Shown here piece after piece: positions 11,128-52,061 of a DNA stretch of 64,000 nucleotides. This stretch comes from Tridacna crocea. Lineage: Eukaryota; Mollusca; Bivalvia; Cardiida; Cardiidae. Every line of letters begins with the position of its first letter. Position 1 is the stretch's first letter. The stretch covers positions 37,658,501 through 37,722,500 of the forward strand of contig OX031057.1 in the NCBI GenBank assembly GCA_943736015.1, written 5' to 3'. Under the pieces are notes generated by a model. The model saw nothing but the letters and a program-made list of their open reading frames with translations. It was not told where the DNA came from and did not search any database. The position numbers were made by a program, and so were the translations under genes.

Positions 11128-11337
11128 TTAACCCATTATCACACTTAATCCCTACCTTTGACTACCCTGAGAAAGAGGCCTTTAGAAAACATTGTGAGAA
11201 AAGGAGAAAATGTTGGTAACCAGTGTTTTCTACCCTTCACAAAACAAATTCTAAATTTTCAGTCACTCCATTTTGTCGTGTGCAAATGCTTTCGATTTGG
11301 ACAAGACTAATATATTGTCATATGGTAATGAGTTATT
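11128..11337 (+). mobile_element. TTAA hairpin MITE (right hairpin arm lost)
   Basis: The left end is TTAACCCATTATCACAC and the right end is TATGGTAATGAGTTATTAA. The left hairpin arm is present, but most of the right arm has been deleted after GGTAACCAGTG. Confidence 0.75.
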
Positions 11338-11565
11338 AATACATCTGCTAAAAGAATCGATCCACGTCAATCTACGCACTTTTTTCTTTAACTTTTATGT
11401 CAAAGGACCATTCTACCACTCGATTCAATCGGCTGTTAGATTAAAAAAAAGTAGATCCATAATATAGTGATAATTTGCGTGTTATAGTGCATAACGGAGA
11501 TGCAATAAACCCCATTTGGCCAGGGCATTGCTCAAACAGAAAATTGGCCTTTCTGTAAACGCGAA

Positions 11566-11766
11566 GGATTGTCCAAATCGAAAGCAATTGCAGACAATTG
11601 AATAAAAAAAGACTGAAAATTTGCAATTAATTCTTTGAAGGGTAGAAAACAATGTGGGAAAAGAAGGAAATGCTGGTTACCAGCATTTTCTCTTTTTCCC
11701 ACAATGTTTTCTGAAGGCTTCTTTTTCATGGTCGTCAAAAGTAGGGATTTTGTGGTAATGGATTAA
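11566..11766 (-). mobile_element. TTAA hairpin MITE (left end eroded)
   Basis: The hairpin is intact (AATGTGGGAAAAG to CTTTTTCCCACAATG), and the right end GTGGTAATGGATTAA is clear. The left end is eroded and begins inside the GTCCAAATCGAAAGC segment. Confidence 0.72.
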
Positions 11767-12143
11767 AAGTTACCTTTGAAATTGCAAAATTTGGGTTTTT
11801 ACCAACGGTTTGAGATTTTCTTTTTAATTAAGCTAGATAGGGTTAAGTCATTTGATTGGCGATACATAACCTGCAACATTACTTATTTTCAGTTTGACGT
11901 AATATTAACTTTCACAACCATAGTTGCCTTTCCAGCCAGTGTGCAGCCTGAATTTTTATTTGCATTGTCGGCTTTGCCGAAACATTTTGGACAAAAGAAA
12001 CCACTCCACTGTAATAACTTCGGTATTTTTATTTAGTTTAAAAAACGAACTCGAAGCACTAAATATATTAAGACAAGGCACTTTTATCCTACAATAAAGG
12101 TTCGTGTTTAGAATTTCACACGAATGCAACACTTTTGCTCCCT

Positions 12144-12373
12144 CAACTCATTACCAATCGACAATATTATAGACTTGTCCAAATTGAACGCATTTGCAGA
12201 CGACAAAATAAAAGTGATTGAAAATTTGAAATTTGTTTTGTGAAAGGTAGAAAACATTGTGGGAAAAGGAGAAAATGCTGGTTACCAGCATTTTCTCCTT
12301 TTCCCACGATGTTTTCTAAAGGCTTCTTTCTCAGGGGCGTCAAAAGTAGGGACTTTGTTTGGTAATGGGTTAA
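12144..12373 (-). mobile_element. TTAA hairpin MITE just upstream of the carrier promoter
   Basis: A full-length copy: left end CAACTCATTACCAATCGAC, perfect hairpin at about 12250-12316, right end GTTTGGTAATGGGTTAA. Its right edge is about 85 bp from the CRE-like site at 12457. Confidence 0.88.
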
Positions 12374-12399
12374 CTTAGTCTAAAACTTCGTTTCTTTGC

Positions 12400-12609
12400 T
12401 AAGAAGTGTCATCTTCGTCTCAGTTCGGTGCCCACAGTAGTTGCAGTACTTTCGTTTGACGTCACAGACTTTTATGGTGAGCACGTGTCCACACTTCCAA
12501 GGTTGGTAAAAGGCAGTAGCCAATGGAGGAAAGACAAGATATGACGAAAAAAACGGAATTGAATTATCTGATTTTGAATTGATTTCATTTGTAACCAATG
12601 GTTTGAAGA
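12400..12609 (+). promoter_or_regulatory. Candidate promoter / 5' UTR of the carrier gene with CRE, E-box and CCAAT box
   Basis: Three textbook sites cluster within 70 bp upstream of the first coding exon: a perfect CRE palindrome TGACGTCA at 12457-12464, an E-box CACGTG at 12482-12487, and CCAAT at 12520-12524. The start ATG lies 86 bp after the CCAAT box. CREB-type and bHLH-type control are inferences from these sites. The TSS is not determined. Confidence 0.45.
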
Positions 12610-12747
12610 ATGGTGCCTGAGGATAAGGACAAATGGGCAGCTCTTTTCAAGTCCATAGACAAGAATAACGATGGTACGATATGCTACGAGGATCTTCGCG
12701 CTGCACTCAAAGTGAGAAATGTCCAGTCTACCTCATTACACGAACAG
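12610..12747 (+). CDS. SCaMC: SCaMC coding exon 1 (start codon, EF-hand 1)
   Basis: This encodes residues 1-46, [13 protein letters not shown] to SLHEQ, with EF loop [12 protein letters not shown] (17-28). An in-frame TGA at 12604-12606 lies two codons upstream of the ATG, so this start is the only one available in this exon. The donor is CAG|GTGATT and the phase is 0. Loop position 12 is Asp rather than the usual Glu, which may alter Ca2+ versus Mg2+ preference. Confidence 0.92.
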
Positions 12748-50193: not shown

Positions 50194-50360
50194 TGAATCC
50201 TGTGTTTTTAGAGTCTGTAGATAAGCGATTCTGACATAATTATGATAAAAGTGTTTTCTCTTTTCCCTCAATGCTACCGCCATATGTGATCATTTTCAGC
50301 TCTGGTTAAAGTGGTATGCAGTCATTTTCAATATGGACAAGTCTAAAATGTTAAGCATTT

Positions 50361-50637
50361 ATTGTTTTTCATAATGTATTTAATTTGTTACGAGAAATTA
50401 TATGAGAATTAGGTAGCAATGTTTATGTGTTCCATGTAAAAGAAGGCTACTTCAGCTGTCTGTCCAAAAGGAAAACAAGAAAATAATTATGCATGGCATC
50501 AAGGTCACAGACAATTGTAAGGCTGAAAAATTTCACAACCCTGATAAAACTTACCTTGTACTGGCTGTTGATGAGCTATATTATGTAATTACTTACTTTC
50601 CAAAAATTTCTTTGTTTTTTACTCAATGAATTAACCC
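50361..50637. other. Spacer downstream of the gene
   Basis: Nothing recognised. Confidence 0.3.
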
Positions 50638-50866
50638 TTAACTCATTACCAAACAGCAATATTTTAGGCTTGTCCAAATCGAAAGCATTTGCAGACGACA
50701 AAATGAAAGTGACTGAAAATTTGAAATTAGTTTTGTGAAGGGTAGAAAACATTGTGGGAAAAGGAGAAAATGCTGGTTACCAGCATTTTCTCCTTTTCTC
50801 ACAATGTTTTCAAAAGGGTTTCTTTCCAGGGGCGTCAAAAGTAGGGATTGTATGGTAATGGGTTAA
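50638..50866 (-). mobile_element. TTAA hairpin MITE
   Basis: 229 bp, both TTAA present, hairpin perfect except one base (TTTTCTCAC). Right arm GGGGCGTCAAAAGTAGGG, the TAATGGG subtype. Confidence 0.93.
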
Positions 50867-51078
50867 CCATACAAGCATATTTAAGGCTCGTCCAAACCTA
50901 CAGGATTTGCAGACTAAATGTTGCTAGAATTACAGAAGTTGTTTTTTGATGAAAAAAAAAATTTTGTTTGAAATGGAGAAAGTGCTGGTTATCAGTATTT
51001 TCTCCATTTCCGCCTATGTTTTAAAAAGAGTTTTCCATCAAGGTAGTTACGAGTCTGGATTGTGTTGTTAAGGGTTAA
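50863..51078 (-). mobile_element. TTAA hairpin MITE sharing its TTAA with the previous copy
   Basis: Left TTAACCATACAAGCATA (diverged). Hairpin GAAATGGAGAAAGTGCTGG with partner ATCAGTATTTTCTCCATTTC; the ATGG/CCAT change is on both arms. Right GTTGTTAAGGGTTAA. Confidence 0.68.
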
Positions 51079-51413
51079 GTCATATGACCAATTGCTATCC
51101 CATGCCAGGTTAAAACAGGCACTCCGAGACTCACTGCATAATATATTTTTTATGGTACCATCAGACCGAGTTGTTCACTCAAACTGATTGACTAATATTA
51201 TTTTGCAAGAATAACCAAAATCAGTTCTTTCAGGAATATCGGACACTTTGACCGAATTTAGCAATTCACTTGCTTTCTCCTTCATTTTTGTTGAGGTAAT
51301 TTTTTAGATCCCACATTTTGAGGGCATCAAAAGTTGCCAGTGTTTGATAGGGGGTAAGATTTTGTGGTAAAAATCATGTATTCTACCACATATAACCCTT
51401 TATCAAGCAATCT
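51079..51413. other. Spacer
   Basis: Scraps of MITE right-arm text at 51310-51365 (GGGCATCAAAAGTTGCC). Otherwise nothing. Confidence 0.3.
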
Positions 51414-51648
51414 CTCAATCCTTTACCAGACAACAAAATTTTAGTGTTGTCCAAATTGAAAGTATTTGCAGACGACAATTTCAATGTGGCTCAAATGGTG
51501 GAATTGTCCATTGATAGGGTAGAAAACATCATGGAAAAAGGAGAAAATGTTGGTTACCTGCATTTTCTCCATTTCCCACAATGTTTTCTAAAGGCCTGTT
51601 TCCAAGGGTTGTGGAAAGTTGGCATTGTGTGTTATAAAGGGTTGAGTG
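51414..51648 (-). mobile_element. TTAA hairpin MITE
   Basis: Left ATCCTTTACCAGACAACAAA, hairpin GGAAAAAGGAGAAAATGTTG with a close partner, right TGTGTTATAAAGGGTTGA. Confidence 0.8.
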
Positions 51649-51832
51649 ACTCTAGACAACAACAACAATGAAAACTGGAAAATACTTTGGGAAGGGAGAA
51701 CATGCTTGTTGTCAATATTTACTCATTTTTTCAAAAAAGTCAGAATTATATATTCTCCCAAAGTTCAAATAAAAAAAAAAAAGATTGATAAACTCTCCTT
51801 TTGCCAAGTTTGTTTTCATAGTTTAACCAGTA

Positions 51833-52061
51833 AACCTTTGTTTCCCACACAGTCCCAACTTTTGTCGACTCTGAGAAGGAAGCCTGTTGACATCATTGTT
51901 GGATAAAGGAGAAAATCCTGATTACCAGCATTTGCTCTCTTTCCCACTTGTTTTCTACCCTGTCCAAAACAGATTCCAAAATTTAAATTTTTTTGTTGTT
52001 GTGTGCAAGTACTTGTAATTTGGACTGGTCTAAAATTTTGTCTTTTGATAAAAGGCTAAAG
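51833..52061 (+). mobile_element. TTAA hairpin MITE, last clear copy in the window
   Basis: Left AGTCCCAACTTTTGTCGACT, hairpin GATAAAGGAGAAAATCCTGA partly paired, right GTCTTTTGATAAAAGGCTAA. Confidence 0.68.

Follow-up and report, generated by a model that had tools for sequence, protein, structure and literature searches.

A TTAA-ended hairpin element family in and around a carrier-like gene of Tridacna crocea, with a palindrome better kept than its arms in the source lineages

We analysed a 64,000-nt stretch of Tridacna crocea DNA (contig OX031057.1, forward strand, positions 37,658,501 to 37,722,500; hereafter the window, with positions counted from its first letter). The window is AT-rich, holds only two open frames of at least 250 codons and no tRNA, and carries 62 non-overlapping segments of one TTAA-ended repeat family, most of them inside a gene that we take to be calcium-binding mitochondrial carrier-like. 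This family, and above all the palindrome at its centre, is the subject of what follows.

The element family and its host gene

Copies were collected by an iterated profile search of the window (E ≤ 1e-3; final model built from 36 copies); with the same profile, the reversed window gave no segment at this cut-off (best E 0.029). A preliminary description made from the sequence had counted about 50 copies of one hairpin miniature inverted-repeat transposable element (MITE) family with a length near 229 bp, and both figures were borne out: 47 of the 62 segments score at least 50 bits, and the majority consensus is 229 bp long. The segments lie on both strands (35 plus, 27 minus), and each complete element is laid out as short terminal inverted repeats (TIRs) enclosing a left arm of ~104 bp, the palindrome and a right arm of ~53 bp. 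The family has the small size (<600 bp), the many alike copies and the lack of coding capacity of a MITE, and its well-preserved copies carry TTAACYC[T/A]TTACCA on both ends, which pair with each other in the DNA fold. It is very likely a non-autonomous, TTAA-targeting MITE family. A scan of the window for other TTAA-ended inverted-repeat pairs (14 bp, at most 2 mismatches, 60-2500 bp apart) returned pairs of which one end belongs to the family, matches in tandem arrays, and a small number besides (14625-14727, 58816-58899 and 47945-49209). Exact family patterns, three in viral_contigs and one in genome_contigs, gave 0 matches each, which says little because these collections hold viruses and prokaryotes.

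The host gene and the 62 profile segments, of which 33 were extended to near full length and the rest are partial, are as follows.

Host gene
12634-49554 (+), carries most copies; taken as calcium-binding mitochondrial-carrier-like; EF-hand and Mito_carr matches

Near full-length copies
4669-4885 (-), old; beyond the range first described (profile match 4676-4883)
11128-11336 (-), 21-nt hairpin deletion
12143-12373 (+)
16050-16260 (+), old
20422-20647 (+)
21215-21445 (-), TTAA at each end displaced outward by two bases (21213, 21447)
21465-21688 (+), TTAA both ends
21935-22164 (-), TTAA both ends
23149-23352 (+), 21-nt deletion extending into hairpin
23563-23771 (+), TTAA both ends; 20-nt hairpin deletion
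24219-24447 (+), TTAA both ends
24520-24751 (+), variant hairpin, paired double changes
27954-28185 (+)
30334-30562 (+), search seed; TTAA both ends; hairpin 30439-30509
30765-30994 (-)
32187-32422 (-)
32429-32657 (-), TTAA both ends; hairpin 32482-32553
32888-33119 (+), TTAA both ends
34108-34332 (+), TTAA both ends; ~40 bp upstream of carrier exon
34953-35181 (-), TTAA both ends; TTAA in common with copy 35178
35178-35386 (+), TTAA both ends; 11-nt hairpin deletion
36674-36901 (+)
37220-37444 (-), TTAA both ends
39054-39282 (-)
39534-39761 (+)
40088-40317 (-), end adjoins carrier splice donor
41532-41749 (+), TTAA both ends; 11-nt hairpin deletion
49676-49910 (+), old
49968-50193 (+), old
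50638-50866 (+), TTAA both ends; TTAA in common with copy 50863
50863-51078 (+), start placed at TTAA in common with copy 50638 (alignment reached 50856)
51415-51645 (+)
51834-52059 (-)

Partial copies
11565-11763 (+)
13458-13553 (+), weak
15479-15571 (-), hairpin and edges, left arm uncovered; variant hairpin, paired double changes
18060-18108 (+), weak
18597-18665 (-), hairpin part alone
18694-18892 (-), variant hairpin, paired double changes
18894-19078 (+), head to head with copy 18694
19204-19344 (-)
20044-20143 (-), weak
20145-20287 (-)
22229-22371 (+)
22573-22714 (-)
23857-23993 (-), without left arm; variant hairpin, paired double changes
25004-25084 (+)
26471-26519 (-), weak
26574-26616 (+), weak
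28239-28423 (-), one unit of 160-bp tandem duplication
28423-28620 (-), other unit of 160-bp tandem duplication
28966-29093 (+), weak
30034-30107 (-), weak
30157-30338 (+)
31788-31932 (-)
33118-33178 (+), left arm only, weak
33942-34053 (-), weak
37744-37828 (+), weak
41305-41358 (+), weak
50188-50351 (-), weak
51676-51733 (+), weak
54217-54370 (+), weak; beyond the range first described

Strong copies are concentrated at 11.0-52.1 kb, which holds 46 of the 47 (P = 6e-8 against an even spread); in this test the interval made up 34,153 of the 52,211 bases that remain without eight tandem arrays, other repeats and a retroelement described below being left in. The range of 11.1-52.1 kb originally given for the family therefore holds for nearly all strong copies, but a good copy at 4676-4883 (E = 4.9e-30) and a weak one at 54217-54370 (E = 1e-7) lie beyond it. 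Confinement to the carrier gene and its flanks, the companion claim, applies within this window only. The stretch of the gene at 42-48.7 kb, mostly tandem array, holds no copy. Coverage by the family is high at 11-42 kb (28%) and 48.7-52.9 kb (37%) and low at 1-11 kb (2%) and 52.9-64 kb (1%). The cluster is not explained by the supply of targets, as TTAA occurs at a similar density in all five sections (6.6 to 8.6 per kb). Nor is it put down to local hopping or to duplication of segments, since distance along the window is unrelated to sequence distance between copies (Mantel rho 0.055, p 0.33; 25 copies), and one tandem duplication of copies was found (160-bp, 28239-28620). A snap-back inverted dimer was considered for the head-to-head pair 18694/18894 and likewise rejected: its halves are merely 70% identical (126/181) and are therefore read as two old copies. 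We suggest that the density reflects repeated insertion into local TTAAs, including those that came with earlier copies, and not local duplication.

The assignment of the host gene draws on six Mito_carr matches at 36.1-49.55 kb, five above the Pfam cut-off and one, at 39.9 kb, below it, and on EF-hand matches near 12634 and 27509, both below Pfam cut-offs. A short exon at 34.4 kb shows an EF-hand-like motif by eye, with no Pfam match when scanned alone, and a solved-structure search with one exon ranked ADP/ATP carriers first. The gene is presumably of the kind known as SCaMC. Three copies lie at most 42 bp from a carrier exon (edges placed by eye), where a rough expectation at that density would be one or two. 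The splice donor of the carrier exon ending at about 40087 (GAG/GTAACC; edge by eye) falls on what is left of the terminal TTAA of copy 40088-40317, as if the terminus of the element now served as the 5′ splice site of that exon.

Retention of the palindrome in the source lineages

Folded with RNA energies, the consensus forms a 67-base hairpin of 32 pairs and a 3-base loop with GGTTACC at its centre, in agreement with the central hairpin of about 67 bp noted at the outset; we analysed it as 71 columns (consensus 106-176). The DNA fold of copy 32429-32657 reaches -60.5 kcal/mol, against -23.4 ± 3.3 kcal/mol in 200 shuffles (z -11.2).

Copy rows were aligned singly to the majority consensus, and substitutions were split into those private to one copy, which mostly postdate insertion, and those common to at least three copies, which are mostly inherited from source lineages (rates per alignment cell). 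In the 25 of 62 rows kept for region rates and variant counts, private rates in the 5′ TIR, left arm, hairpin, right arm and 3′ TIR were 0.031, 0.033, 0.036, 0.037 and 0.048, whereas the shared rates of the same regions were 0.104, 0.119, 0.018, 0.110 and 0.095. Counted as variants, private and shared changes number 62 and 7 in the hairpin and 124 and 84 in the arms (odds ratio 6.0, P = 1.4e-6). A set narrowed to the 11 copies of lowest divergence gave shared rates of 0.012 in the hairpin and 0.053-0.065 elsewhere, and 39 copies admitted under a 0.28 divergence limit gave 0.059 and 0.115-0.177. Because the search itself may favour copies with good hairpins, the test was redone on copies detected from their arms alone, which recovered 38 of the 62, 22 of them within the length and divergence limits. 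Shared change in these 22 was again rarer in the hairpin than in the arms (0.017 vs 0.106; Mann-Whitney 5e-7, and 8e-5 without CpG/CA/TG sites), and private change was equal (0.037 vs 0.036). The 40 of 62 copies with both arms covered, taken without a divergence limit, gave 0.061 vs 0.177 for shared and 0.024 vs 0.017 for private change. With private change about equal and shared change three- to six-fold rarer in the hairpin, it follows that the sources kept the hairpin and that decay came after insertion. Post-insertion decay is thus even along the length of the element, and the source lineages diverged in arms and terminal repeats and far less in the palindrome, partly via changes on both stems.

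Low shared change in the hairpin might instead reflect exchange among copies, through conversion or recombination at the palindrome, with no constraint involved. Exchange or recurrence could yield the double change at columns 9:61 to C-G, which is met on three distinct parts of the arms tree. Of the six deletions of at least 10 nt seen in the 33 near full-length copies, five affect the hairpin region (11128-11336, 23149-23352, 23563-23771, 35178-35386 and 41532-41749), so that the palindrome may be fragile in the chromosome. However, exchange among resident copies should also wipe private changes, and these persist in the hairpin at about the arm rates just given; the deletion excess is not significant at a threshold of 8 nt or more (5/7, P 0.064). 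We regard exchange as very unlikely to account for the pattern.

Stem pairing was examined in 43 of 62 rows for double changes and wobbles, in 39 for a first tree simulation and in 35, with both arms covered, for a second. A 27% limit on hairpin divergence, which drops the most decayed copies, applied to the pairing counts, the register test and the first simulation; the second was run without it, with at most 12 gaps. Double changes number 54 in the 43 hairpins, and 33 of these are Watson-Crick pairs; partner shuffles gave 28.3 and 12.9 (maxima 41 and 25 over 500 shuffles). Sliding the partner by 1-4 columns lowered the count from 54 in the true register to 14-34. Independent-column simulation on the arms tree produced 9.3 ± 3.5 pairing double changes where 31 were observed (39 copies), and the second simulation 6.7 ± 3.7 against 26 (35 copies); the observed value was reached in 0/300 runs each time. 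Copies 24523, 18694 and 32890 have arms 23-28% off consensus, yet keep 31, 32 and 32 of 33 positions paired, the first two with a variant hairpin in which both stems have changed. Private changes in resident copies comprise 1 pairing double change vs 52 one-sided changes. Resident copies therefore lose pairing, which was mostly inherited from the sources and decays after insertion.

Several of these counts weigh against a palindrome kept by its sources. The six-fold gap in shared change falls to about three-fold in the wide sets, and when double changes of every kind are counted, 3 of 300 simulation runs (35-copy set) came up to the observed total. Among the double changes, 21 are unpaired (3 wobble, 18 mismatch), and one-sided changes number 269 against the 33 pairing double changes, though post-insertion decay explains most of them. 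Non-partner column pairs of the hairpin also change jointly more often than expected (1942 vs 1646), from relatedness.

Two further explanations bear on the pairing itself. The stems could have been kept alike by mutation if replication or repair, perhaps coupled to transposition, switched templates from one arm of an imperfect palindrome to the other; such switching is reported to make and maintain hairpins (PMC8794818), and the 33 Watson-Crick changes among 54 would suit it. Arm copying alone, we reason, should keep pairing and not lower divergence, whereas shared change is lower here, and the single private pairing double change in resident copies also speaks against it. Template switching is therefore unlikely in place of constraint, although it could add to it. 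Alternatively, the hairpin could owe its retention to a function as RNA, in the active element or in the host, for instance as a small-RNA precursor or an intronic hairpin. MITE hairpins can turn into microRNA genes (PMC1784062), and many copies lie inside the gene span, but wobbles arising from one-sided changes show no excess on either strand (65 vs 62), the orientation bias relative to the gene is weak (35 vs 27), the hairpin decays after insertion just as the arms do, and Rfam gave no match at gathering scores. An RNA role thus seems quite improbable.

Ends, mobilisation and the remaining window

An intact TTAA stands at the expected position at the 5′ end of 18 and the 3′ end of 19 of the 33 near full-length copies, as for a piggyBac-type target, and no base beyond it is conserved. 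The TIR start first proposed, TTAACCC, has its CCC in 17/33 of the 3′ ends (with intact TTAA, CCCA in 7 and CCCT in 7, or 14/33), but at the 5′ ends CTC (12/33) is commoner than CCC (7/33); the remainder are decayed or different. Published piggyBac TIRs are reported to start with CCCTT, CCCTC, CCCAT or CACTA (PMC10813416).

An autonomous partner from another TTAA-targeting superfamily, Kolobok or Sola3, is an improbable alternative to which the CTC left ends lend some weight, as they differ from the textbook piggyBac end. Sola3 also uses TTAA. Kolobok does so as well (PMC9587614, PMC6004289), but its termini are described as 5′-RR...YY-3′ (PMC9587614), whereas well-preserved termini here start with CC or CT after TTAA. 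We prefer a piggyBac type over Kolobok because of the TTAA and the CCC[A/T] 3′ ends, set against 5′-RR termini in Kolobok. Counting against the piggyBac assignment are the excess of CTC, the presence of TTAA at both expected ends in only 13 of 33 copies, the failure to see a transposase partner in selected window stretches scanned with Pfam, a part of the whole window, and the fact that the joined flanks of the 33 copies matched, within the window, only the elements themselves, which leaves no empty site. A piggyBac-type MITE is the best reading and probably the right one. The piggyBac-derived MITE proposed initially is accordingly supported as a MITE, and its piggyBac origin is consistent with the target and the 3′ ends, yet the left ends read CTC more often than CCC.

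All of the evidence is computational and comes from one locus. Constraint limited to the mobile phase argues for a cis role in transposition, and we consider the chances about even that the palindrome is a cis-acting, DNA-level element in mobilisation. The overall explanation that we favour, and rate slightly more likely than not, is a piggyBac-type TTAA MITE whose source-kept palindrome is used in mobilisation. The transposase would be supplied in trans by an unseen piggyBac-type element, and the palindrome would open as a hairpin or cruciform, during replication or in supercoiled DNA. In the version that we prefer, the opened palindrome would act as a hinge, shortening or bending an element that is itself very short and stiff and so bringing its two ends together; after insertion it would have no job and would decay. 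Constraint in mobility does not by itself define the action of the hairpin, which may be bound by a protein as sequence rather than in folded form. More tentatively still, and rather doubtfully, very short piggyBac-type MITEs in general may need a folded DNA hinge to let the termini of a 229-bp element come into contact within the transposase complex. Selection would then act only in the mobile lineage, and the palindrome would be kept better than the terminal repeats.

Elsewhere in the window, a 570-aa open frame at 61187-62896 (+) has reverse transcriptase and GIY-YIG matches, a pairing of domains by which we take it to be a Penelope-like retroelement, and a 297-aa open frame at 63109-63999 (-) runs off the window end and has no Pfam match at E 0.01. 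Long arrays of ~166-bp units occupy 42249-48680, inside the carrier gene, as well as 52940-53794 and 56215-58691; they are of at least two kinds, one of which occurs in both orientations. Positions 1-4600 contain degenerate ~17- to 24-bp repeats resembling CTACAATACCACCAGACC, with a GC skew of about -0.37 over the first 4 kb. Two arrays of 21-bp units, at 5134-5296 and 7808-8010, stand in opposite orientation (TCGAGAAAACGAAATACTAAA and its near complement) beside short matching inverted repeats (5346-5375 and 7679-7732), and are possibly the ends of a large inverted-repeat element.

Comparison with known elements

The hairpin was rightly singled out in the preliminary description, but as an anatomy it is less unusual than was supposed, since a near-identical one was published for a clam repeat in 2016 (PMC4732748). 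That repeat, 'consensus sequence 1' of Lucina pectinata, is 210 bp long with imperfect inverted terminal repeats and a central 77-bp palindrome that is 96% self-complementary, and several copies sit in clam haemoglobin genes, within introns and in the promoter (PMC4732748). Its terminal repeats differ in being 30 bp long, and the portion of the paper available to us describes no target-site duplication, superfamily or test of palindrome evolution; its sequence appears only in a figure, so the comparison is one of anatomy alone (PMC4732748).

The coral CMITEs share with the present family a TTAA target, piggyBac-type CC[C/T]T ends, tandem copies and a 75-bp interior that is better conserved than the terminal repeats and suspected of a role in transposition (PMC2872659). 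The palindrome here is likewise better kept than the terminal repeats (shared change 0.018 vs 0.095-0.104). CMITEs differ in their length of ~100 bp, and in the available part of that account conservation was noted between families, with no division between changes in the source and those after insertion (PMC2872659). Its text contains none of the terms 'hairpin', 'palindrom' and 'secondary structure', and the 75-bp sequence is given only in a figure, so that this core too is compared by description (PMC2872659). AmiPB4, a coral piggyBac-like element, has a terminal repeat, CCCATTCCCTGCCACA, that resembles CCCATTACCACAC of the MITE family (PMC2872659, Table 2); AmiPB4 is a long element whose transposase frame has two internal stops, and the likeness is confined to a short terminal motif. 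Xenopus T2-MITE/Kolobok elements resemble the family in their TTAA target and long-lived MITE families, and differ in their termini, AGGRR rather than CCC or CTC (PMC6004289).

The anatomy is thus not new, since the Lucina repeat and the coral CMITEs precede it. What appears to be new is the evidence that base pairing of the core was preserved during mobility: among the matches listed in the open-licence literature (titles and abstract starts), we found no report of compensatory changes in the hairpin of a MITE. It is an old question how MITEs become so numerous without a transposase of their own, and the conserved internal core of piggyBac-type MITEs had been noted earlier and left unexplained in the text available to us (PMC2872659). 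The family described has a hairpin as its core, and the retention of that core in the mobile phase can be told apart from its later decay; a testable claim follows, that an internal folded DNA structure, besides the ends, is needed for mobility. Were the hinge proposal true, the same rule would explain both the conserved core of the coral CMITEs and the palindromic repeat of the clam.

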